In this document: piece by piece, positions 3,960 through 62,912 of the stretch
Position numbering within the stretch: position 1 is the first letter of the stretch
Layout of the letters: each line of letters opens with the position of its first letter
Source of the DNA: Panopea generosa
Taxonomy: Eukaryota; Mollusca; Bivalvia; Adapedonta; Hiatellidae
Reading direction: 5' to 3'
NCBI GenBank assembly: GCA_029582155.1
Contig: CM055895.1
Span: 61,977,078-62,041,077, forward strand
Length of the DNA: 64,000 bases
Position numbers and translations under genes: made by a program
Notes under the pieces: model-generated
What the model saw: the letters and a program-made list of their open reading frames with translations, nothing else
The model's database searches: none
Told to the model about the DNA's origin: nothing

Positions 3960-4290
3960 TACCAGCACCACTCACATCTTATCTCTGCAAGTCACTATTT
4001 ACTTCCCAACATATTCAAAGGTGAGAGATTCATGCAGCATCAAACACACCTTATCTCTGCATGTCATTGACTACTTCCCCACATATTCAAAGGTGAGAGA
4101 TTCATGCAGCACCACACACACCTTATCTCTGAACGCCACTGACTACTTCCCCACATATTTAAAGGTGAGAGATTCGTGGCTGTAGAACACAATTCATGAA
4201 CAATCATCAGAGAGACTGTGGCAGGGTAGGAATTCAAGCTCAAGACTCCACGATTGACCCCTAAATTGGCAAACCGGCGTATTAATAACT
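3960..4290 (-). repeat. SINE family B copy with internal 72-bp triplication
   Basis: The right part (4,165-4,290) matches the minus-strand body and reversed B box of SINE family B. A 72-bp internal segment, corresponding to the family's CTCCGCAAGTAACTGATAAC...GGTGAGAGAC block, occurs three times; the GGTGAGAGATTC motif recurs at about 4,020, 4,092 and 4,164. Because 72 is a multiple of three, the array stays open in one frame and gives a spurious repetitive ORF. Confidence 0.7.
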
Positions 4291-6204: not shown

Positions 6205-6425
6205 TATTTATTTTTTTAATGGGTTTTAACGCCATTTTCAACACATTTCAGGTTATACATGGCATATTAAGTTTTACTGGTGGCGTCAGACCTCAGACTG
6301 AGCAAAACCATCATACTTCCGCAAGTAACTGGAAACTTTCTCACATAAAGTTTTTGGAGCGAGCAGTACTCGAACCTGCAACCACACGAACAATTAAACC
6401 TGTATAAGTGGTTAAGCCGCCACAT
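6205..6425 (-). repeat. tRNA-derived SINE, family D
   Basis: The plus strand reads the family D 3' end first (GGGTTTTAACGCCATTTTCA, then ACACATTTCAGGTTATA). It continues through CACATAAAGTTTTTGGAGCG to a reversed B box (AGTACTCGAACCTG) and reversed A box (AAGTGGTTAAGCC). The best-preserved copy is at 11,348-11,552. Confidence 0.8.
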
Positions 6426-42336: not shown

Positions 42337-46530
<4,194 letters not shown>

Positions 46531-49324: not shown

Positions 49325-51786
49325 AACAAGAGCTGTCGGAAGGACAGCACGCTTGACTATTTCAATGCTGTTGAAACAACAGTTTTTTCAGGAAATAAGT
49401 ACCAAATGGAAAACCTCAATTTAAAATTAAGCTACAATTATTGCTTATCTGTTAAAAATAAATTAGCAAAATAAGTCATCAACACTAATATTTTCATTAT
49501 CAACAAATAAGTTTTTGAAAACAACAAAGTGAATGGATGGCTGGTATTGTCTTAATATTATTTGATTCAGCATTTGTCATTTGTTACATTTGTCTATCAA
49601 ACTTTAAAATTGCTTTATATATTCATTAACCATTGGTGACAAATAACCCAAATAGGTGTACCAATACCAAACTTAAGGCACACCATGTACATAATATATT
49701 GTAAAAACCATAAATACTTCAATTGTATGACTAAAATAATATTAATTGGTCAAGCATATCAAGAAATACTAATTAAACATTACCTTAAATAATTCCAGCA
49801 AGAATTTAAAATATAGTGTAAGCTATAGTTGAGATGATCTTCTGTTTCAAGATAAGTTTATCAATGTTTTACATGTGTAATACAATTATGCACTACCTTC
49901 AAATCATATGGTAATATACTAGTTCTTGGTAATGGATCTACAGTCTTGTTCCAACACATACAGTTTATCAATGCTTGGTATCTTTCTAGAAGTTGTTCAG
50001 TTTTATACATGTATACAATAAAGGCCTATGCACTTCACATCAGAGGGCAATATATCGGTACCAGTTCATGAAAATGGATCTATAGTTGAAATAATGTTGT
50101 ACTAGCATGCACAGTTTATCATAGCTGGATACTCTTTCATGATGGTGAAGAAAAAAATTTAAAGAAATTAAAACTTTCATGAAAATAAAAAAATCTAAAA
50201 AAAAAGATTAAAAAATTAAATTCGAGTTTCAGGTGTTCGGTAAAAAAATATTTTTTTACGTTTTCCCTACATAACACTATATAAAATGTTTACCCCTTAG
50301 GGTGGACCAATTTTGCCCACAGGGTTATGGTTTTGAACAAATTTGAATGAATGAGTAGGGTTTTACGGTGTACCAACACATAGGTTATTTGACGCCAACA
50401 GGAAGGAAGATTCCAGGTTCACTCTACATGTACAAAAACAACAAATTAACATACAGATTTAAAAGAAATACACCAACAAATGAATATGCAGAATGAACCT
50501 AGAACCTTGATACCTGCAGAACTGCAGAGTTTCAGCAAATTCTATCATATTACTCAAAATTGTCGCTTCTTACGACATGCATGAGCCACAGTGGTCCTAT
50601 TCTTGCCATCACTCATGACTCCCTGGAACCACACAGGTGTTGATAATTTAACCACAATAGTGAATATGACAAAAAATGATAAAATGAACATGACGCCCAT
50701 TCGGAGGATTCCTACCCCTCTGCAGAGATCGGCAGTGATTCTATTCTTAGCCGGAACCACGCAACTGAACAAATTTGAGAGGGGACCACAAACTGGGTCG
50801 ACCCTATTTGTCAAACATCTAAGCTCAATGCCATGTATTACAAACTTTTATCTGTTAAAAAATAAACTTTCTAAGTCTAAAAGGTAAATAATTCTGCCAA
50901 AATGCAATCAAGAGATATGATTCTGGTCTCTTATAAGTTTCCTAGACAGTGCTGAACACACATGTGAAGTTTCATTCATGTCCAATGATAGGTTGATGAA
51001 ATAAGTACCTGCAAACAACTTTAACCAAATTTTCAGTCTGAAAACGGCCATAACTCTTTAACCTGTTAAAAATCTCTAATTTTCTAAGTCCAAATAACTT
51101 TATAAAAATGCAACCCAGAGTTATGGTTCTCATCTCTGTGCATTTTGTTGATGATGCTGAACACACATGAAGTTTAATTCATATTCAATGATAGGTTGAT
51201 GAAATATGTACCTGCAAAAAACTATAACCAAATTTTCAAAGTCTTAAAATCTATCCATAATTCTGCCAAAATGCAACCAGAGATATGGTTCTCATCTCTG
51301 TGCATTCCAATTATGATGCTGAACACACATGTGCAGTTTCATTCATATCCAATGAATGGTTGTATAGATATTTTACCTGAGAAAAAAACTTTAATCTGAA
51401 AAATTAAGTCCAAAAAGGGCTATAACTATGCCAAAATGCAACCCAGGGCTATGATTCATGTATGTGTGTTCCATTGATGATGCTGAACAAATATGTGAAG
51501 TTTCATTCATATTCAATGAGTGGTTGTATCGATATCTTACCTGATAAAACACTTTAACCCGAAAAATTAAGTCCAAAAAGGGCCATAACTGTGCGAAAGT
51601 GCAACCCAGAGTTATGGTATCTCTGTGTGTTCTATTAATGATGCTGAACACACGTGAAGTTTCATTCATATTCAATGAGTGGTTGCATAGATATCTTACC
51701 TGATAAAAAACTTTAACCTTGAAAACCAACACCGACACGAGACAAGTAAAATAGCCCCCCTATTCTATGAATAGTTTAGCTAAAAA
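49325..51786 (+). mobile_element. Helitron-like element H4 with tandem core
   Basis: Starts AACAAGAGCTGTCGGAAGGA CAGC, in which GCTGTC and GACAGC pair, and ends CCTATTCTATGAATAG, TTTAGCTAAAAATGA, in which CTATTC and GAATAG pair. The right half (50,890-51,720) has five to six units of about 150 bp sharing ATTCATATCCAATGA, GATGCTGAACACACATG and CCAAAATGCAACC. A 419-bp retroposon is nested inside. Confidence 0.6.
50347..50765 (-). repeat. 419-bp retroposon (family F), copy 2, nested
   Basis: Perfect 13-bp target duplication TGAACAAATTTGA at 50,334-50,346 and 50,766-50,778. Exactly the same length as the copy at 5,351. On the minus strand a frame reads AKNRITADLCRGVGILRMGV then FILSFFVIFTIVVKL and DGKNRTTVAHACRKKR, nearly the same as in copy 1. 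Confidence 0.9.
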
Positions 51787-53759: not shown

Positions 53760-54051
53760 TGATTGATTGAATATTTATTACATTTTTTATGCCATCGAGG
53801 GCTAACAGATGATCAGTTGACTTAACCACCGTTTCCTGGAATCCTGGAAGGTTAACCAGGACTCGAGCACACCCCATCTAAGTAAGTAACTGATAACTTT
53901 CCCATTTGAATCAGTGGTGAGAGACGAATGATAATGAGACGCAATGTTGTATATCAACCATCAAGGTGATTGTGGCCAGGCAGGGATTCAAACTCACGAC
54001 CCCTGAATTGATAGTCAGACTCGGTAACGACTGAGCTAATTGGGCCCAGCT
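53760..54051 (-). repeat. tRNA-derived SINE, family B, full length
   Basis: 11-bp duplication ATTCCTATACA at 53,749-53,759 and 54,052-54,062. Lies just downstream of TMEM220 in transcript orientation. Confidence 0.92.
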
Positions 54052-54235
54052 ATTCCTATACAAATATATATGAATCAATACAAATTTATACAATAATATA
54101 CAATTAAAACAGTAACATATATCAGATTTGGTTGGCAAGTTCAGCTAACGTCTCAATACGTAGATATATATTTTACATAAACCACAGTAAATGGCATATT
54201 TCAAAAAATATTCTGAGTCACATTTCGAGATATAT

Positions 54236-54383
54236 TCATTTAAACATCCCATTGCAATGCCCTAGGCGAGTATGCCAGTCACTAATAAAGCACATTGACC
54301 AAATGAACAGTGGCAAAATCGTCAAGGTAATGGTCATCAAGAGGAGAGCACCCATCATGCCTTTACTGGAAACAGCAGCTGGT
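54236..54383 (-). CDS. TMEM220: TMEM220 coding exon 6 and stop
   Basis: After TTATTGCAG it completes an arginine codon, then PAAVSSKGMMGALLLMTITL and the rest of the last helix, ending GMFK and TGA. Matches the human [20 protein letters not shown] segment in spacing and hydrophobicity. Confidence 0.9.
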
Positions 54384-57300
54384 CTGCAATAAGAAACACA
54401 TCCATTAATACTGAACATAAATACCAATTTTCTGGCGTCTAGAACATTCATACTTTCACAACATTTACTAAATTCTTTATTCTCAGCAAAGACCAGATTT
54501 ATATGAGCATTGCTACTTGTAAGTTGGTTCTGTATCCGATTCTTGGAGTTTTTTTAAATGAGTTATGATGTCATTTTCAATTTTACACATTACAGGTTAT
54601 ATTACATATCCAGCAACTTTATTGGTGGAGGAAGAACTCGGATTGAATCTATACAGAATTACTGTCTTACATTAAGGAACTGGTAAACTCTCTCATATAA
54701 AGGTTTTGGACTGAGCTGGGTTCGAACCTACAACCAATGAGAAGTAAATGATTGGGAGACAATGTCATGAACTCTGTCACATGTAGAAGATATGGACAGA
54801 CAACTTAAACAGCATAAAGCAGAAGTGAATTTCTATATGAGATCTTGTAATAATAATAATAATGAAAAATAAATAAAAATAAAGTAATTATTTAACAAAT
54901 CATTTGAACAAGTCGATCTTCCATGAGGCCCTCAAATATCTGAAGTATTGCTGCCCATGTTTGGGGGGAAAATGAAATTTCAAAAGCAGAAAATTTGATT
55001 TTCCTGAATGTTTAGTAAACTAACATGTACAGATCTGTATATTTAACCCAGTTAAATTCCAAAATCACCTAAACCTGCAACTCCCTTTGCTGCGCCCCTT
55101 CTCAGCTTCTATGCCCATATGATGATTATAACATCATATTTAGAGACATCTCTACCATTTTAAAGGTAACAGAGTAAAAACTTTTCTTTTTTATTAAATA
55201 GAAATATCTCACCTTCCAATGTTTGTGAATCTACTAATACCTAACCATGTTATTATGATCAGCAGCCCTCCCATCTCCCTGGAACATACAATATCATTGG
55301 TTAATATAAAATATATACAACATAACTACAACATCAACTTGGTATACCAGTAATTCGATGATGATTACGACTATCAATTAGGTCAGATTCTTAACGCCTC
55401 GCTAAGCAGCTACGCCCTCTTATGAATGAAGGCAACACGATTCTAGTCAAATGTAAATCAATTCGAAATATTTTCAAAATGGTTCATTTGGCTGTGATTT
55501 CTTGTGCTGCAGATGGCACAGCATATACCGTAATCAGAAAGTGATTTTTATTTGATTTCATTTTAGGACTGTCTTAAAAAAAACATCAGGTCAATCCACC
55601 AGTAATTGTGCATATTTATGAGCAAATGTATTCTGATTCTGAAAAATATAACTTTAAAAACATATTGTGGAACTCCTAGACATTATTACATAAAGAACAA
55701 GGAGCAAAATTCAACGGTGTAGTGAGACCAAATTGTTGATTATGTATACTGACCTGTCCTTGAGGTGACCATTTTCTCCATATAAATTATGTAACAGTAC
55801 TAGTGCTACCCAATTAGCTCAGTCGTTAGCACATCTGACTTTCAATCCTGGGGTCATGAGTTCAAATCCTCGTCTGGCCACAATCTCTGTGATGGTTGAT
55901 ATACGACATTAAATCTTATTATCATTTGTCTCTCACAATTGATTCAGGTGGGAAAGTTATCAGTTACTTGTAAAGATGGGGTGTGCTCAAGTACTGGTTA
56001 ACCCAGGAAACAGTGGTTAGGTTAACGGATCTTTTGTTAGCCCTCAATGGCATAAAAATGAAGCTAAATATTCAATCAATCAATCAATATCTAATCTTCA
56101 ATAAGGACGGGAATAAAACAAAAATATACTCCTATCATATTGTGATCAGATTTATTACCTGCATACTTCATGTTGCAAAGGGTTTTCTAATCTGTTTCCC
56201 ACTGCTTCAACAAGTAACATTATTTGGTAAAGACCCATTGCACAGCATAATGTGAAAAATACCACCGTGCATATTTGCCACAGATTTGTACCTGTGGAAG
56301 AAACATATCTTTTAAAATCATAGATAATATGTAATTAAATTTTGTAGCAATATTTGTAGAATTTACTTGTCTTCTAAGATGAAATTAATGATTTAGTAGA
56401 TGTCTTGAAACAAAGCCAGAAACAAACGAGGTTTTACTGTAATACTGATGGCTTGTTTAATTAGATACCCACCTTCTTAATGTATACTTGTTCATCTTAA
56501 CTCAATTGTAAAATCAATTTTGTAAATCCTTCTCCAGTATGTTTAGTGGGTAGAAACAGTATGTTTGTTTCTTAAAAATCACAAGATTGAGTCTGAAATC
56601 GAACCTGCAACTTCTGGCATGAGCGGCCATATTTACACCACTGTCTCACCACTTCATGGTCTCATAAGTAACTTAAAATAAGTACCTTCTAATACAACCA
56701 AATACTGCTATGGGACGTAGGTTGGTCATCTTAAAAGTGCAGGGCTAGAAATTGATACGTTGGTCTGTGATCTCCACCAGATTTTAAAAAAAAAAATGTA
56801 AATGGCCAATGGTGCATTCTCAGGGGGTTTGTGTATATTTTTTCTATACAAAACATATTGATTACTTATGCATTAATAATTTTTTATTATTATGGCAAAA
56901 AATGCAAGCCTGGGCCTGTAGTACCTACGTATAGCTATGTCGGTAGCTATGACAGGTTATGAATGATGGAAACAACATCTGCTATATAAACATTAAGATA
57001 AACAGTAAGAACATTTGAGATTGATAAAATTTGACTACAGAGCAGATGTCATCCTATAAATAGATAAGATATGAAGCACTGATGAACACTTAATCCATTA
57101 TATAATGACATGTGGTCAGTTTCTCTAAGAATATAAAGGTGAGATTTTTCTAATTAAAAATGTCAAACTCTCCAACTTGTTACGCATTAAATGACAACAT
57201 ACAAGATGATCAATGTAAATGAAGTTTTAGCATTGCAAACATTTGAGTTGAGGAAAATCTCAAGTTGAGATGTTTAGTGAAACTGGGGAGTTTAATTGTG

Positions 57301-60300
57301 GATTTAGACCTCAGGTGTATACATGTATAAACAATTAGACATTATCCTGAGAAGAATTGTCAAGGCTCGTACTAAATTCTTTTATGTACCTCACCTGATG
57401 AATTTTAAACTATCAGGCACTAACATGGTATTCACTATATCTCAGTACATTGTACATACCTGCTAATGAAACCTTGATATTATCTCAATACATTGTACAT
57501 ACCTGCTAATGAAACCTTGATATTATCTCAATACATTGTACATGCCTGCTAATGAAACATTGATATTATCTCAGAACATTGTATATACCTGCTAATGAAA
57601 CCTTGATATTATCTCAATACATTGTATATACCTGCTAATGAAACATTGATATTATCTCAATACACTGTCCAAACCTGCTAATGAAACCTTGATATTATCT
57701 CAATACATTGTACATACCTACAAATGAAACCTTGATATAATCTCAGTACATTGTACATACCTGTTAATGAAACCTTGATATTAACTCAGTACATTGTACA
57801 TACCTGCTAAGAAATCTTGATATTATCTTAGTACATTGTACATACCTGCTAATGAAACCTTTGATATTATCTCAATACATTGTACATACCTGCTAATGAA
57901 ACCTTGATATTATCTCAATACATTGCACATACCCGCTAATGAAACCTTGATATTATCTCAATACATTGTACATACCTGCTAATGAAACCTTGGTATTATC
58001 TCAATACATTGTACATACCTGCTAATGAAACCTTGATATCATCTCCATACATTGTACATACCTGCTAATGAAAACTTTGACATTATCTCAATACAGTGTG
58101 CATACCTGCTAATGAAACCTTGATATTATCTCAATACATTGTACATACCTGCTAATGAAACCTTGATATTAACTCAGTACATTGTACATACCTGCTAAGA
58201 AATCTTGATATTATCTTAGTACATTGTACATACCTGCTAATGAAACCTTGATATTATCTCAATACATTGTACATACCTGCTAATGAAACCTTGATATAAT
58301 CTCAGTACATTGTACATTCCTGCTAATGAAACCTTTGATATTATCTCAATACATTGTACATACCTGCTAATGAAACCTTTGATATTATCTCAATACATTG
58401 TACATACCTGCTAATGAAACCTTGATATTATCTCAATACATTGCACATACCTGCTAATGAAACCTTGTTACTATCTCAATACATTGTACATACCTGCTAA
58501 TGAAACCTTGGTATTATCTCAATACATTGTACATACCTGTTAATGAAACCTTGATATAATCTCCATACATTGTACATACCTGCTAATGAAACCTTGATAT
58601 AATCTCAGTACATTGTACATTCCTGCTAATGAAACCTTTGATATTATCTCAATACATTGTACATACCTGCTAATGAAACCTTTGATATTATCTCAATACA
58701 TTGTACATACCTGCTAATGAAACCTTGATATTATCTCAATACATTGCACATACCTGCTAATGAAACCTTGTTACTATCTCAATACATTGTACATACCTGC
58801 TAATGAAACCTTGGTATTATCTCAATACATTGTACATACCTGTTAATGAAACCTTGATATAATCTCCATACATTGTACATACCTGCTAATGAAACCTTGA
58901 TATTATCTCAATACATTGTACATACCTGCTAATGAAACCTTGATATAATCTCAGTACATTGTACATTCCTGCTAATGAAACCTTTGATATTATCTCAATA
59001 CATTGTACATACCTGCTAATGAAACCTTTGATATTATCTCAATACATTGTACATACCTGCTAATGAAACCTTGATATTATCTCAATACATTGCACATACC
59101 TGCTAATGAAACCTTGTTACTATCTCAATACATTGTACATACCTGCTAATGAAACCTTGGTATTATCTCAATACATTGTACATACCTGCTAATGAAACCT
59201 TGATATAATCTCCATACATTGTACATACCTGCTAATGAAACCTTGATATAATCTCCATACATTGTACATACCTGCTAATGAAACCTTGATATTATCTCAA
59301 TACAGTGTACATACCTGCTAATGAAACCTTGATATTATCTCAATACAATGTATATACCTGCTAATGAAACCTTGATATTATCTCAATACAATGTATATAC
59401 CTGCTAATGAAACCTTGATATTATCTCAATACAATGTACATACCTGCTAATGAAGGCTTGAGTACCAGTGGTGCAGATAAAAATGCTGGGAAAAGGTAGA
59501 TTGGCTGAAATGGATGAAAAATATCAACATTTTCTGACATATCTAATCTCACACACAATGCTGCATCTAGTAGTAGAGCTTATGCTTCATATGCAGAAGG
59601 TCGTGGGTTTGATCCAAAGACTTGAAAAATGGTTATAGAAGCTTCCGCGCTTGGCGCTAAGCATACAGATGTTAGTTCTAGTTCTGTTCAGCCTGGCGTC
59701 AGTATAAAGTGATAGGGTGGGGTATCATATTATTTATTTGTGTCATGATACTCCAGTGTGGCAGCCCTCAGAATACTATCTTAAGTAGACACTGTTGGGA
59801 TATAAATGAAAAATTGTTGAAAGGGAGGCTAACCACCATACAACAAGCAATAACTTTATTTACACATTTATTTCTTGTTTTTACTGATATTCTCAAAATA
59901 AGTTTAACAAATATAAATGGCACCAGTATTTAAGAATTCAGTCAATATAAATAGATACACACAGTTTATTTAAACAGCATTAAATCTTCAACTGCCTACT
60001 AAAATAGAACATGTGCACAGCGCTCCAGATAAGCTTTTCTTCAAATGAGTATGTTACCCTTCAATTAGTATGAAATGCTTATTTTCAATTCAATTTTCAT
60101 TTAAAACAAACTAACCAACACTGAACTTGAGAGTAATCAATGCTTATTTTACCCCTTTATTTAAATTTCAATGCTTAAATACCCTTAAATAGTGCTTATC
60201 TGGAGCACTGCTGTGCACATTACATGTATGAAAACTGAATGCAAATTCTCTTTTTGTTTTATTTGATCAATTACAATGTGAATGCAAATTCATCTAGAAA

Positions 60301-61826
60301 TATAAGTGTAGTAATGAGAAAGGATGAATGCTCATATACACTAGTAAAGAAGCAGGTGTATCAAACAATAATGTAGAAGATTTTCTATTTGAGGATGATA
60401 TAAATTTCCATAGATTATAAGATATACGTTTTCCCGCACCAATCACAGAAGGCTTTTGAAAACAGTGCAGGAAGAGTTCAGATTGATTGTTACACTTCCT
60501 GCACTGTTTTCCACTCTGTCAGTGAATATAAACATAATTCACCCAATAATTCAAAAGCCTTCTATATTAGGTATCCAAAGGTGTCTATATGAAGTAAAGG
60601 GTTAAGCCAAATTTTAGGAGTATTTAAAATGCAAAACTTACCATCCACATATACCAATCATCATCATTTAACTGCAAAACAAAGACAAAATGTATAAGAA
60701 TTAAAGTCTAAATTATAATACCTTCCTTCATTTTCCCTTCTTTTCTTGGTGTTCATTTCAAATATTCTCTGTCATTATATGCCTTACAAAGATTTTCTGA
60801 TTGATTACGAAAAAAAAAAAGAATTTACCAACCTACCTACCCACCCCTAAATGATGCGAGTTGGAAGTGGCAAACAAGCAATTTTCTAAAGGTGACCTTA
60901 AGTTCATGTACAATCCTCCCTGTGTATACATGTTTATTTTTTAAGTCTGTATTACTATATGTATATCAAATGCAATGATAATAGACAATACAATACTCAT
61001 GTTCATATATCAAAGAAACTTTGACAATACTCCAACAGTTATACTTTTTTTCAAGGCTAGAATAATATATATGAAAATGATTGATGCTTAGACAAAAATG
61101 TCAATAATTCACAACTCATGCATAACAACTTTATCAAAATATCTACATGTATATAAAAAATTATGTAACAGGATGAGAAATGTAGGCAGCCAGTCTGGGA
61201 CTTGAACTCAAGACCTTTCACTTACAGGGCGAATGCTCTACCTGCTGAGCTAGCCGCACTGCATCCATACTATTCTCTTCAAATAGGTTACTTACACACT
61301 TTGACATATACCCGTACAAATATAGACTTAATCTTATTCAATCTTGTAAAGAATAGATGAACTTGATTTATTGGAGTTGTGCTGGTCTAGTGGTTAGCAT
61401 GGTTGCTCCAAGATCAAGAGGTTCCAAGTTTGGTTCCAGTTTGGGTCACATCCATTTTTTTAAAACATAATCCCATAATGCCTTATTTGAGTGAAGTGCT
61501 GTAAAAGTGTGCAATCCTTTGGAGGGGATTTAAAGCAGTTGATACCAAGCAGAGTGTCATACCCAGTGTATGTAAAATATCTGAATGAACTTGTAAGCTG
61601 ATAAGCAATTCAAATGCCTGTAAACCCTTCCCAGGAAGTGAGGCTTTCTATGATAATCAATTCATGAAAGAAAGGTTAGAAGAGACCAATACAAAATATC
61701 ACTCACATTAGCGACAGCAGCCAAGACAAAGAAAACTGTCATTGTTAGGTTGACACCTTGCCAAACATACATGATTGCAGATTTTTGTTTGATGTTTGGC
61801 TCTTCTGGAGATTGGTCTCGAATCAT
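54236..61826 (-). CDS. TMEM220: Transmembrane protein 220, six coding exons
   Basis: Exons in transcript order: 61,826-61,707, 60,671-60,642, 59,504-59,444, 56,291-56,159, 55,278-55,213, 54,383-54,236; all GT-AG and phase-consistent; 185 aa (human about 160). The N-terminal part has VWQGVNLTMTVFFVLAAVAN then LNDDDWYMWM, matching human FFALAALVQVNDPDAEVWV. It continues PIYLFPAFLSAPLVLKPSLA, GTNLWQICTVVFFTLCCAMG, a loop with LQHEVCREMGG, LLIIITWLGISRF and MGALLLMTITLTILPLFIWS, then a WHTRLGHC tail. Four or five hydrophobic helices are expected. The molecular role of the family is poorly known. Intron 3 holds a 2-kb array derived from its own 5' splice site. The first 20 residues are less conserved. 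Confidence 0.92.
54548..54775 (-). repeat. SINE family D in TMEM220 intron 5
   Basis: TTTTCAATTTTACACATTACAGG, CTCTCATATAAAGGTTTTGG and the reversed B box GGGTTCGAACCTACAACC are in family order. Degenerate at both ends. Confidence 0.75.
55213..55278 (-). CDS. TMEM220: TMEM220 coding exon 5
   Basis: 66 bp: acceptor TGTTCCAG, EMGGLLIIITWLGISRFTNI G, donor AAG|GTGAGA. Corresponds to human [20 protein letters not shown]. Confidence 0.92.
55806..56095 (+). repeat. SINE family B in TMEM220 intron 4
   Basis: Head CTACCCAATTAGCTCAGTCG, B box GAGTTCAAATCCTCG, body and ATTCAATCAATCAATC tail. Inserted antisense to the gene about 60 bp from exon 4. Confidence 0.88.
56159..56291 (-). CDS. TMEM220: TMEM220 coding exon 4
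   Basis: 133 bp: acceptor TTCCACAG, GTNLWQICTVVFFTLCCAMG through to PLQHEVC, donor CAG|GTAATA. Aligns with human [20 protein letters not shown] and ILHEEEGRE. Confidence 0.92.
56292..57439. other. TMEM220: TMEM220 intron 3, unique part
   Basis: No exon or repeat recognised between exon 4 and the 43-bp array. Confidence 0.5.
57440..59443 (-). repeat. 43-bp minisatellite made of TMEM220 exon 3 donor copies, about 46 units
   Basis: On the transcript strand the unit is AAGGTTTCATTAGCAG, GTATGTACAATGTATTGAGA, TAATATC. The exon 3 end and its donor read CAAGCCTTCATTAGCAG|GTATGTACATTG followed by the same bases, so the first unit is the real exon-intron boundary (16 exonic and 27 intronic bases). 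Almost every unit keeps CAG|GTATGT. Blocks of seven or eight units (spacing about 303 and 347 bp, marked by the TACATTCC variant at 58,313, 58,615 and 58,962) show later larger duplications. Confidence 0.95.
59444..59504 (-). CDS. TMEM220: TMEM220 coding exon 3
   Basis: 61 bp: acceptor CATTTCAG, PIYLFPAFLSAPLVLKPSLA plus one base, donor GCAG|GTATGT. Corresponds to human [20 protein letters not shown]. This donor is chosen among about 47 copies because the frame meets a stop seven codons further on and the human alignment continues directly into exon 4. Confidence 0.9.
59562..59855 (+). repeat. SINE family C in TMEM220 intron 2
   Basis: Head TCTAGTAGTAGAGCTTATGC, B box GTGGGTTTGATCC, body GGGTGGGGTATCATA and ACCATACAACAAGCAATAA tail. 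More diverged than the copy at 24,670. Confidence 0.85.
60013..60217. mobile_element. hAT-like MITE, copy 1, in TMEM220 intron 2
   Basis: Termini CAGCGCTCCAGATAAGC and (reversed) CAGTGCTCCAGATAAGC; 205 bp, AT-rich, non-coding. Flanks TGTGCA on both sides suggest a decayed 8-bp duplication. A relative lies at 63,146-63,396. Confidence 0.65.
60405..60605. mobile_element. TTAA-type piggyBac-like MITE, copy 6, in TMEM220 intron 2
   Basis: Right end ATATGAAGTAAAGGGTTAA is intact; left terminus is replaced. The palindrome is partly lost (GTTCAGATTGATTGTTACAC). Ends 37 bp from exon 2. Confidence 0.75.
60642..60671 (-). CDS. TMEM220: TMEM220 coding exon 2 (30-bp microexon)
   Basis: Acceptor TTTTGCAG, ten codons LNDDDWYMWM, donor ATG|GTAAGT. 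Phase 0 on both sides. Matches human VNDPDAEVWV, the family's most recognisable motif. Confidence 0.9.
61193..61262 (-). repeat. tRNA-like sequence, SINE head or pseudogene
   Basis: Minus strand GCGGCTAGCTCAGCAGGTAG AGC A box, an anticodon loop reading TGT, and GAGTTCAAGTCCC B box. The acceptor arms do not pair, so it is not a functional tRNA. Confidence 0.6.
61379..61500 (+). repeat. tRNA-derived SINE head
   Basis: GCTGGTCTAGTGGTTAGCAT A box and GGTTCCAGTTTGGGTCAC B-box region followed by a T run; body follows but has no second copy here. Confidence 0.55.
61707..61826 (-). CDS. TMEM220: TMEM220 coding exon 1
   Basis: 40 codons from the first methionine to AAVAN, donor AAT|GTGAGT. The exon extends 17 bases upstream to an acceptor (CTTTTCAG, exon from 61,843), so a non-coding leader exon lies further up. 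Confidence 0.9.
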
Positions 61827-61900
61827 GCTACTTCAAAAAGTCCCTGAAAAGAAACATGCATTGATAGAAGATATTAAAATATGATATTTAGCTATATATT

Positions 61901-62912
61901 AAACAAGAAATGTCACTGTTAAGTGTCACATTGTCCCACAAATGGTCTGTGAAAATAACAATATATTTTATAATTGATAGCAATGTATCTATGAACATTA
62001 AGAGTAATGGACTGACGTTTTTAGACAAGACATGCAATTTCATGTTTTTTTTTATACATAAAAGTGTGACCTAGACCTCTGTGTAACTTTGACCTTGGAA
62101 TCTGAAGTAACGGTCTTGGTATTTCTACAGGTAAATGCAGGTGACACATCATCATGACATGTTGATTACTTGTGTCCAGCTTCTTTAAAATCTTTCAATG
62201 TAAGACAGTTACAGACCAGACATGAAATATCAATCAAACCTAAAGTGTGACTTTGAGGTAAGGTTCTGGGTCTTAATGCGACAAGCCTTTATGTCATGTT
62301 GTTCAATTAAGCTAAGTGATTTTGAAATCCATCCATGTATGATAAAGTTATAGACCAGATGTGAGATCTCAATCTGACTCAAGGTGTTGTCAAACAAACT
62401 CAAAGTGAGACCTTGACCTTTGAGGTACGGGTCTTGGTCTTGCGTGCGACATGTCGTCATGTCATTCTGATCAATTGAGCCAAGTTAAAGATGAAGTTAC
62501 AGACCAGACACAAACTATGAAACAAACTGAAAGTGTGACATTGAGCTTTGAGGAAAGGTTCTGGGTTTTACAAGTGACACTTCATCATGTCATGTTGATC
62601 AACTGAGCCAAGTGTTTTTTTAAATTTATCTATAGGTGACAAAGTTACAGACTGGACACATCTCAAACAGACTGAAAATGTTGTCAAAGTTAAATTGTGA
62701 CCTTGACCTTTGAAGTGGGAATCTGGGTGTTACTCACAACAAGTTGTCATGTTATGTTGATCATTTGTAGCAAGTATTAACAAAATCCATCCATGCATGA
62801 CACATTTAAAGGCCGGACACGAAATACAGGACAGACAGATTGATGGAGAGACAGACAGACACTGCAATTACTATATGCCATCCCAAAAGTTTGTGGGGCG
62901 GTGGCATAAAAA
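61901..62912 (+). mobile_element. Helitron-like element H5 in TMEM220 intron 1
   Basis: Starts AAACAAGAAATGTCACTG and ends ATGCCATCCC...GGGGCGGTGGCATAAAAA, whose ends pair. Core of about five degenerate 150-bp units with TGACCTTTGAGGTACGGGTC, TGTCGTCATGTCATTCTGAT and AAAGTTACAGACCAGACAC, then ACAGACAGATTGATGGAGAG before the hairpin. Confidence 0.6.

Follow-up and report, generated by a model that had tools for sequence, protein, structure and literature searches.

The window, which is the whole 64,000-nucleotide stretch of Panopea generosa DNA that was analyzed, contains a gene for TMEM220 on the minus strand. Six coding exons between 61826 and 54236 join in phase to give an open reading frame of 185 codons. 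The encoded protein matches the Pfam family TMEM220 (PF15071) with an E-value of 1.1e-20 and a score of 74.6 bits, above the curated cutoff of 27, and the same domain is common to all 17 of the protein matches listed. The best of these 17 matches is 71% identical and is therefore not the product of this very gene; at that identity, the best named match belongs to the clam Mercenaria mercenaria. The elements of the gene and of the tandem repeat at the end of its third exon are given below in window coordinates.

61707–61826, minus strand: coding exon 1 of TMEM220, placed by alignment to homologues, with the first ATG picked as the putative start
60642–60671, minus strand: exon 2, 30 nt, phase 0
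59444–59504, minus strand: exon 3, 61 nt, phase 1, ending in AAGCCTTCATTAGCAG, placed by protein alignment
56292–59443, minus strand: intron 3, 3152 bp, of which the array makes up 64%
56159–56291, minus strand: exon 4
55213–55278, minus strand: exon 5
54236–54383, minus strand: exon 6, including the stop codon
57438–59461, minus strand: 43-bp minisatellite (TRF: 46.9 copies, 93% matches), in which the authentic donor unit is followed by 46 donor-like ones
59436–59446, minus strand: authentic donor of intron 3, CAG/GTATGTAC, copy 1 of the array
58288–58893, minus strand: two adjoining identical blocks of seven units (units 14–20 and 21–27), a sign of recent block duplication

The junction between exons 3 and 4 (join at 56291) is free of gaps in the alignment with all 17 mollusc homologues. 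At the end of exon 4 the protein reads HEVCREMGG, with a cysteine in a nearly invariant column where 16 of the 17 homologues have glycine; no glycine is visible in the remaining homologue, and the cysteine is a possible odd residue. A tRNA-like match to Rfam RF00005 (34.6 bits; 61187–61255, minus strand) lies in intron 1 and is possibly a tRNA-derived repeat. Nothing beyond this one tRNA match was obtained when the region 54000–62500 was scanned with Rfam.

Structure of the 43-bp Array

The minisatellite begins inside the last bases of exon 3 (exon end at 59444), which places the array at the 3′ end of that exon. The 5′ splice site of exon 3 is thus amplified in tandem, as the initial annotation had proposed, with 47 units that comprise the authentic junction and 46 intronic copies. 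The donor positions extend from 59443 (authentic) to 57459. Unit length was scored for 46 units and is 43 bp in 36 of them, 44 bp in 8, and 42 bp in 2.

The donor 9-mer is CAGGTATGT in 35 of the 47 units, CAGGTATAT in four, and CAGGAATGT in three; CAGGTATGC, CGGGTATGT, TAGGTATGT, CAGGTTTGG, and CAGGCATGT each occur once. The GT dinucleotide is kept in 43 of the 47 units and lost in four, and most units therefore carry a canonical donor. The description of CAG/GTATGT as present in almost all units was slightly generous, given that the full consensus is found in 35. The weaker donor GTATAT occurs in four units only, at 2–3 (59357–59400) and 43–44 (57588–57631), near the edges of the array, as if GTATGT had spread through the interior and left an older form at the margins.

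The end of the exon is identical to the repeat unit over its last 11 bases, and the similarity extends to 18 bases, starting from TCAAG, with two mismatches. At these two positions CC precedes TTCATTAGCAG in the exon, and GT is the usual pair in the units. The exon end does match the unit, as had been noted; since identity covers 11 bases and the wider similarity 18 with two mismatches, the division of the unit into 16 exonic and 27 intronic bases is a choice of frame.

Origin and Turnover of the Array

The CC that distinguishes the exon from the repeat belongs to the codon of a proline that is invariant at the end of exon 3 in all 17 mollusc homologues (18 aligned proteins when this one is counted). 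It is absent from all 46 intronic units. The exon end is therefore likely ancestral and the repeat derived, and the exon 3/intron 3 junction is most likely the source of the array; this direction is based on protein conservation and one codon, and past the proline the exon end is less fixed and shared only in part, with KPSxA in 5 of the 17 homologues. The reverse order, in which the array came first and the exon end was copied from it, is disfavored by the same two observations. Upstream of TCAAG the unit has no match to the exon, which prevents an exact reconstruction of the duplication that founded the array.

The exact 17-mer of the junction was found at a minimum of 27 places in the 1.474-Gb assembly (39 contigs), and all of those listed lie within this array. 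The unit therefore looks local, and the exact 17-mer matches listed do not place it at the other loci expected of a dispersed satellite family. An origin from a dispersed repeat or transposon was also considered and rejected; outside the array, 279 kb of DNA yielded only two matches to the unit at E ≤ 1, of 15 and 27 bases.

A variant containing ACATTG is shared by units 1, 2, and 3 and by no other unit, from which it appears that the junction copy itself joins in the turnover of the array. In addition to the identity of units 14–20 with units 21–27, units 8–12 are identical to 16–20, units 8–13 to 23–28, and units 29–30 to 38–39. These identities indicate that the array was copied in blocks, and recently.

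Coding Outcome and Donor Strength

Splicing from the authentic donor gives a protein of 185 amino acids. The initial annotation had expected that the choice of a downstream donor would trigger decay, since 43 is not a multiple of three and read-through meets TAA. Both premises are correct, and splicing from any of the 46 later positions (including the four that lack GT) is predicted to bring a stop after codon 77 of 185 because the TAA lies within the first repeat.

The units were also said to be equal donors, and this holds for the 35 of 47 that share the authentic 9-mer and hence the same computed pairing with U1. The computed energy of this U1 duplex is −8.0 kcal/mol, compared with −11.8 kcal/mol for the ideal CAGGTAAGT. 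The corresponding values for the donors of exons 1, 2, 4, and 5 are −5.2, −8.8, −8.1, and −9.6 kcal/mol, respectively. What had been called a strong U1 target is therefore moderate relative to the ideal and within the range of ordinary donors of the same gene. The nearest competitors of the authentic donor, copies 2 and 3, carry GTATAT with a computed energy of −7.2 versus −8.0 kcal/mol.

Variation among the Donor Columns

When identical units were collapsed to 22 distinct ones, the nine donor columns varied 1.11 times on average, against 1.18 times for the remaining 34 columns. In this set 24 of the 43 circular 9-base windows, counting the donor's own, are no more variable than the donor window, and the column variation of the 22 distinct units thus reveals no conservation specific to the donor. 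Selection for the donors is not borne out by these values. Without collapsing, the 46 units give 1.44 for the donor columns versus 2.06 elsewhere (rank 13 of 43), a count in which copied blocks receive extra weight; it leans mildly toward donor conservation and is not extreme. Homogenization is enough to explain the uniformity of the donors. The predicted fold of the RNA containing exon 3 and approximately eight units was unremarkable, with a z-score of −1.73 and 7 of 100 shuffled sequences folding as well.

Minisatellites in the Genome

The genomic background was sampled as 20 stretches of 10 kb spaced regularly along 11 contigs, 200 kb in total including 5 kb of N. Arrays were defined by a period of at least 20 and at least four copies. 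In this small sample, where arrays are clipped at the ends of the stretches, 26 arrays cover 46,408 bases, or 23% of the 200 kb, and 13 of them are 1 kb or longer. Up to 187 copies per array were found within one sampled stretch. By the same definition the window contains nine arrays that cover 18% of its length. Extrapolation gives roughly one array of at least 1 kb per 15 kb. As a rough estimate, if the genome is assumed to have 200,000 donors, 43-bp units seeded at random would strike one of them several hundred times ahead of any selection. With minisatellites at 23% of the sample, some exon ends would therefore be struck without selection or any special cause.

Proposed Explanation and Its Alternatives

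The array is probably a minisatellite that arose from the exon 3/intron 3 junction, is actively turning over, is neutral or mildly harmful, and leaves the first donor dominant. It would have formed by tandem duplication out of this junction of TMEM220 in a bivalve whose genome is extremely rich in minisatellites. Each new copy adds a donor-like site because the unit holds the last exon bases together with the donor, and CAG/GTATGT would persist because block duplication homogenizes the copies rather than because the donors are selected. The first copy is probably the main donor in the transcript, since it is the only one that completes the 61-nt exon seen by exon definition. A slip to a later copy would lead to the stop after codon 77 and to removal of the transcript by nonsense-mediated decay, and the array would therefore be neutral to mildly costly. 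Two observations count against this explanation. The 35 identical donors form a strong set of competitors, and among equal 5′ splice sites preference can go to the one closest to the 3′ splice site. The donor columns of the uncollapsed units are also somewhat less variable than the rest, as described above.

In an alternative explanation the array regulates expression. A share of the transcripts would use the later copies and be decayed, the copy number would set the output of TMEM220, and length variants among individuals would tune it. The stop shared by all 46 later positions and the 35 identical donors among 47 are in keeping with this proposal, as is the recent rearrangement of the array, which is hence probably variable in length. 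The donor columns of the distinct units bear no sign of selection, however, and copies 2 and 3 are computed to be weaker than the authentic donor, though copies 43 and 44 share their GTATAT. We regard such regulation as unlikely. The same judgment, very slightly less severe, is given to a splicing valve tuned by copy number, in which approximately 34 identical donors would compete with the authentic one, loss through nonsense-mediated decay would follow array length, and the dosage of TMEM220 would be heritable and fast-evolving; in a wider form of this reading, splice junctions may be amplified repeatedly in a genome with approximately one-fifth of its DNA in minisatellites.

The later copies might instead assist the authentic donor as pseudo-5′ splice sites, with U1 bound downstream strengthening the definition of the short exon 3 at sites that are themselves uncut. 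By computed energy, most units could pair with U1 no less stably than the authentic donor. A precedent is found in exon 11 of PAH, where U1 bound just downstream stimulates the natural 5′ splice site, as described in the excerpted text of PMC5933811. The PAH variants in that excerpt are at +17 and +20, whereas the nearest copy in the clam array lies 43 nt beyond the authentic donor and, with GTATAT, is among the weaker ones. Together with the lack of donor-specific conservation in the distinct units, this makes a supporting role of the copies improbable.

Recursive splicing had also been suggested, in which each TTTCATTAGCAG/GTATGT would act as an acceptor and then as a donor and the intron would be removed stepwise. 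An AG lies directly before the donor position in 45 of the 46 intronic units, and such a path would preserve the reading frame. The pyrimidine content between −20 and −5 averages 55% in the 46 intronic units, within the range of 50–81% of the five acceptors of the gene itself (81, 75, 62, 50, and 62%). A competing AG is present at −5/−4 in 42 of the 46 intronic units, however, and only 5 of the 46 have a yUNAy motif in the stretch from −50 to −12, whereas all five acceptors of the gene itself have one within −50. Steps of 43 nt would fall below the usual length of introns, and the intron amounts to only 3152 bp. The suggestion is therefore weakly founded; the units may see weak use as acceptors, and we consider stepwise removal very improbable.

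The remaining proposal, that the array is a U1 sponge protecting a long intron from premature polyadenylation (telescripting), is the least credible, because intron 3 is short at 3152 bp, its donors are not specially conserved in the distinct units, and intron 2 contains six AATAAA signals in 1137 bp and has no array; in its favor, ATTAAA at 57296 and AATAAA at 56888 are less than 0.6 kb from the array end. The portion of intron 3 downstream of the array contains ATTAAA, AATAAA, and ATTAAA (one AATAAA and two ATTAAA).

Comparison with Known Systems

The repeat unit of the minisatellite in human IFI6 is 12 bp in length and stays in frame, and slips among its units can therefore be tolerated. 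As with the clam array, it is a minisatellite at an exon end whose units offer splice donors. The IFI6 minisatellite is reported to supply more than one splice donor (Turri et al. 1995, as cited in PMC4526556), and according to the excerpted text of PMC4526556 two downstream repeat units serve as donors, which leads to three mRNA species and different isoforms. In contrast, the clam unit of 43 bp is out of frame and meets an immediate stop, and there are 46 intronic units, whose use as donors is hypothetical. In principle the clam array could work as that of IFI6 does, with later units that would be ruinous rather than a source of isoforms.

Two further precedents concern duplication at splice boundaries. 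In the case described in the excerpt from PMC4974935, a duplication over the intron 1/exon 2 boundary made a new intron. As in the clam, the tandem duplication runs across an exon/intron boundary and takes splice signals with it; unlike that case, the clam has tens of copies of a 5′ boundary inside one intron and no sign of a new intron. In human duplicated genes, variable internal tandem repeats are found at exon–intron boundaries, with an average of four 30-bp units, half of them coding (PMC2812944, in the portion available). Those repeats resemble the clam array as minisatellites that alter exon–intron structure, including the activation of cryptic splice sites, and differ from it in that the clam has approximately 47 units of 43 bp that are noncoding past the first. 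A literature search on tandem-donor arrays, related duplications, recursive splicing, and bivalve minisatellites returned no further tandem-donor case within the terms and collection searched. The clam array is a clean and extreme case of the known kind of donor-bearing minisatellite, with IFI6 as its closest precedent, and does not represent a new kind.

The locus is a natural experiment on how the spliceosome picks the right 5′ splice site among identical ones at 43-bp steps. Because the clam array cannot tolerate slips, the strength of a preference for the first copy could be measured directly in the RNA. Approximately one-fifth of the sampled sequence is minisatellite, which suggests that such genomes may often face this problem of donor choice.

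Other Donor-Bearing Arrays

A search for the tandem-donor pattern (gap of 20–110) in 279 kb that includes the window returned two arrays, and the reversed control returned none. In the background sample, a 65-bp minisatellite at C3:20009649–20010531 (13.6 copies) contains 11 copies of CAG/GTAAGT on the minus strand. The 160 bases before its first donor hold stops in each of the three frames, and one frame is open for approximately 17 codons up to that donor, so that a short exon is possible there. The similarity of part of this stretch to window positions 6325–6386 (75% across 64 bases) suggests a dispersed repeat. As a second instance of junction amplification this array was rejected, since no coding exon is evident, and it is counted as donor motifs inside a minisatellite.

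Both strands of 12 other arrays in the window were scanned, and two short arrays with approximately one strong donor-like 9-mer per unit were found, neither of them linked to an exon. The first, at 3963–4175 on the plus strand, is a 72-bp repeat of three copies with AAGGTGAGA three times, each as AAG/GTGAGA, and could be a small donor array or a product of chance. The second, at 51105–51725 on the minus strand, is a 164-bp repeat of 3.8 copies in which CAGGTAAGA occurs twice and CAGGTAAAA once. Two more of the 12 arrays have one or two scattered donor-like 9-mers, compared with 35 in the 43-bp array. Elsewhere in the window, at 42337–46500 on the plus strand, lies a candidate gene with an RGRGR-rich start, which from its protein we take to be that of ribosomal protein S2.
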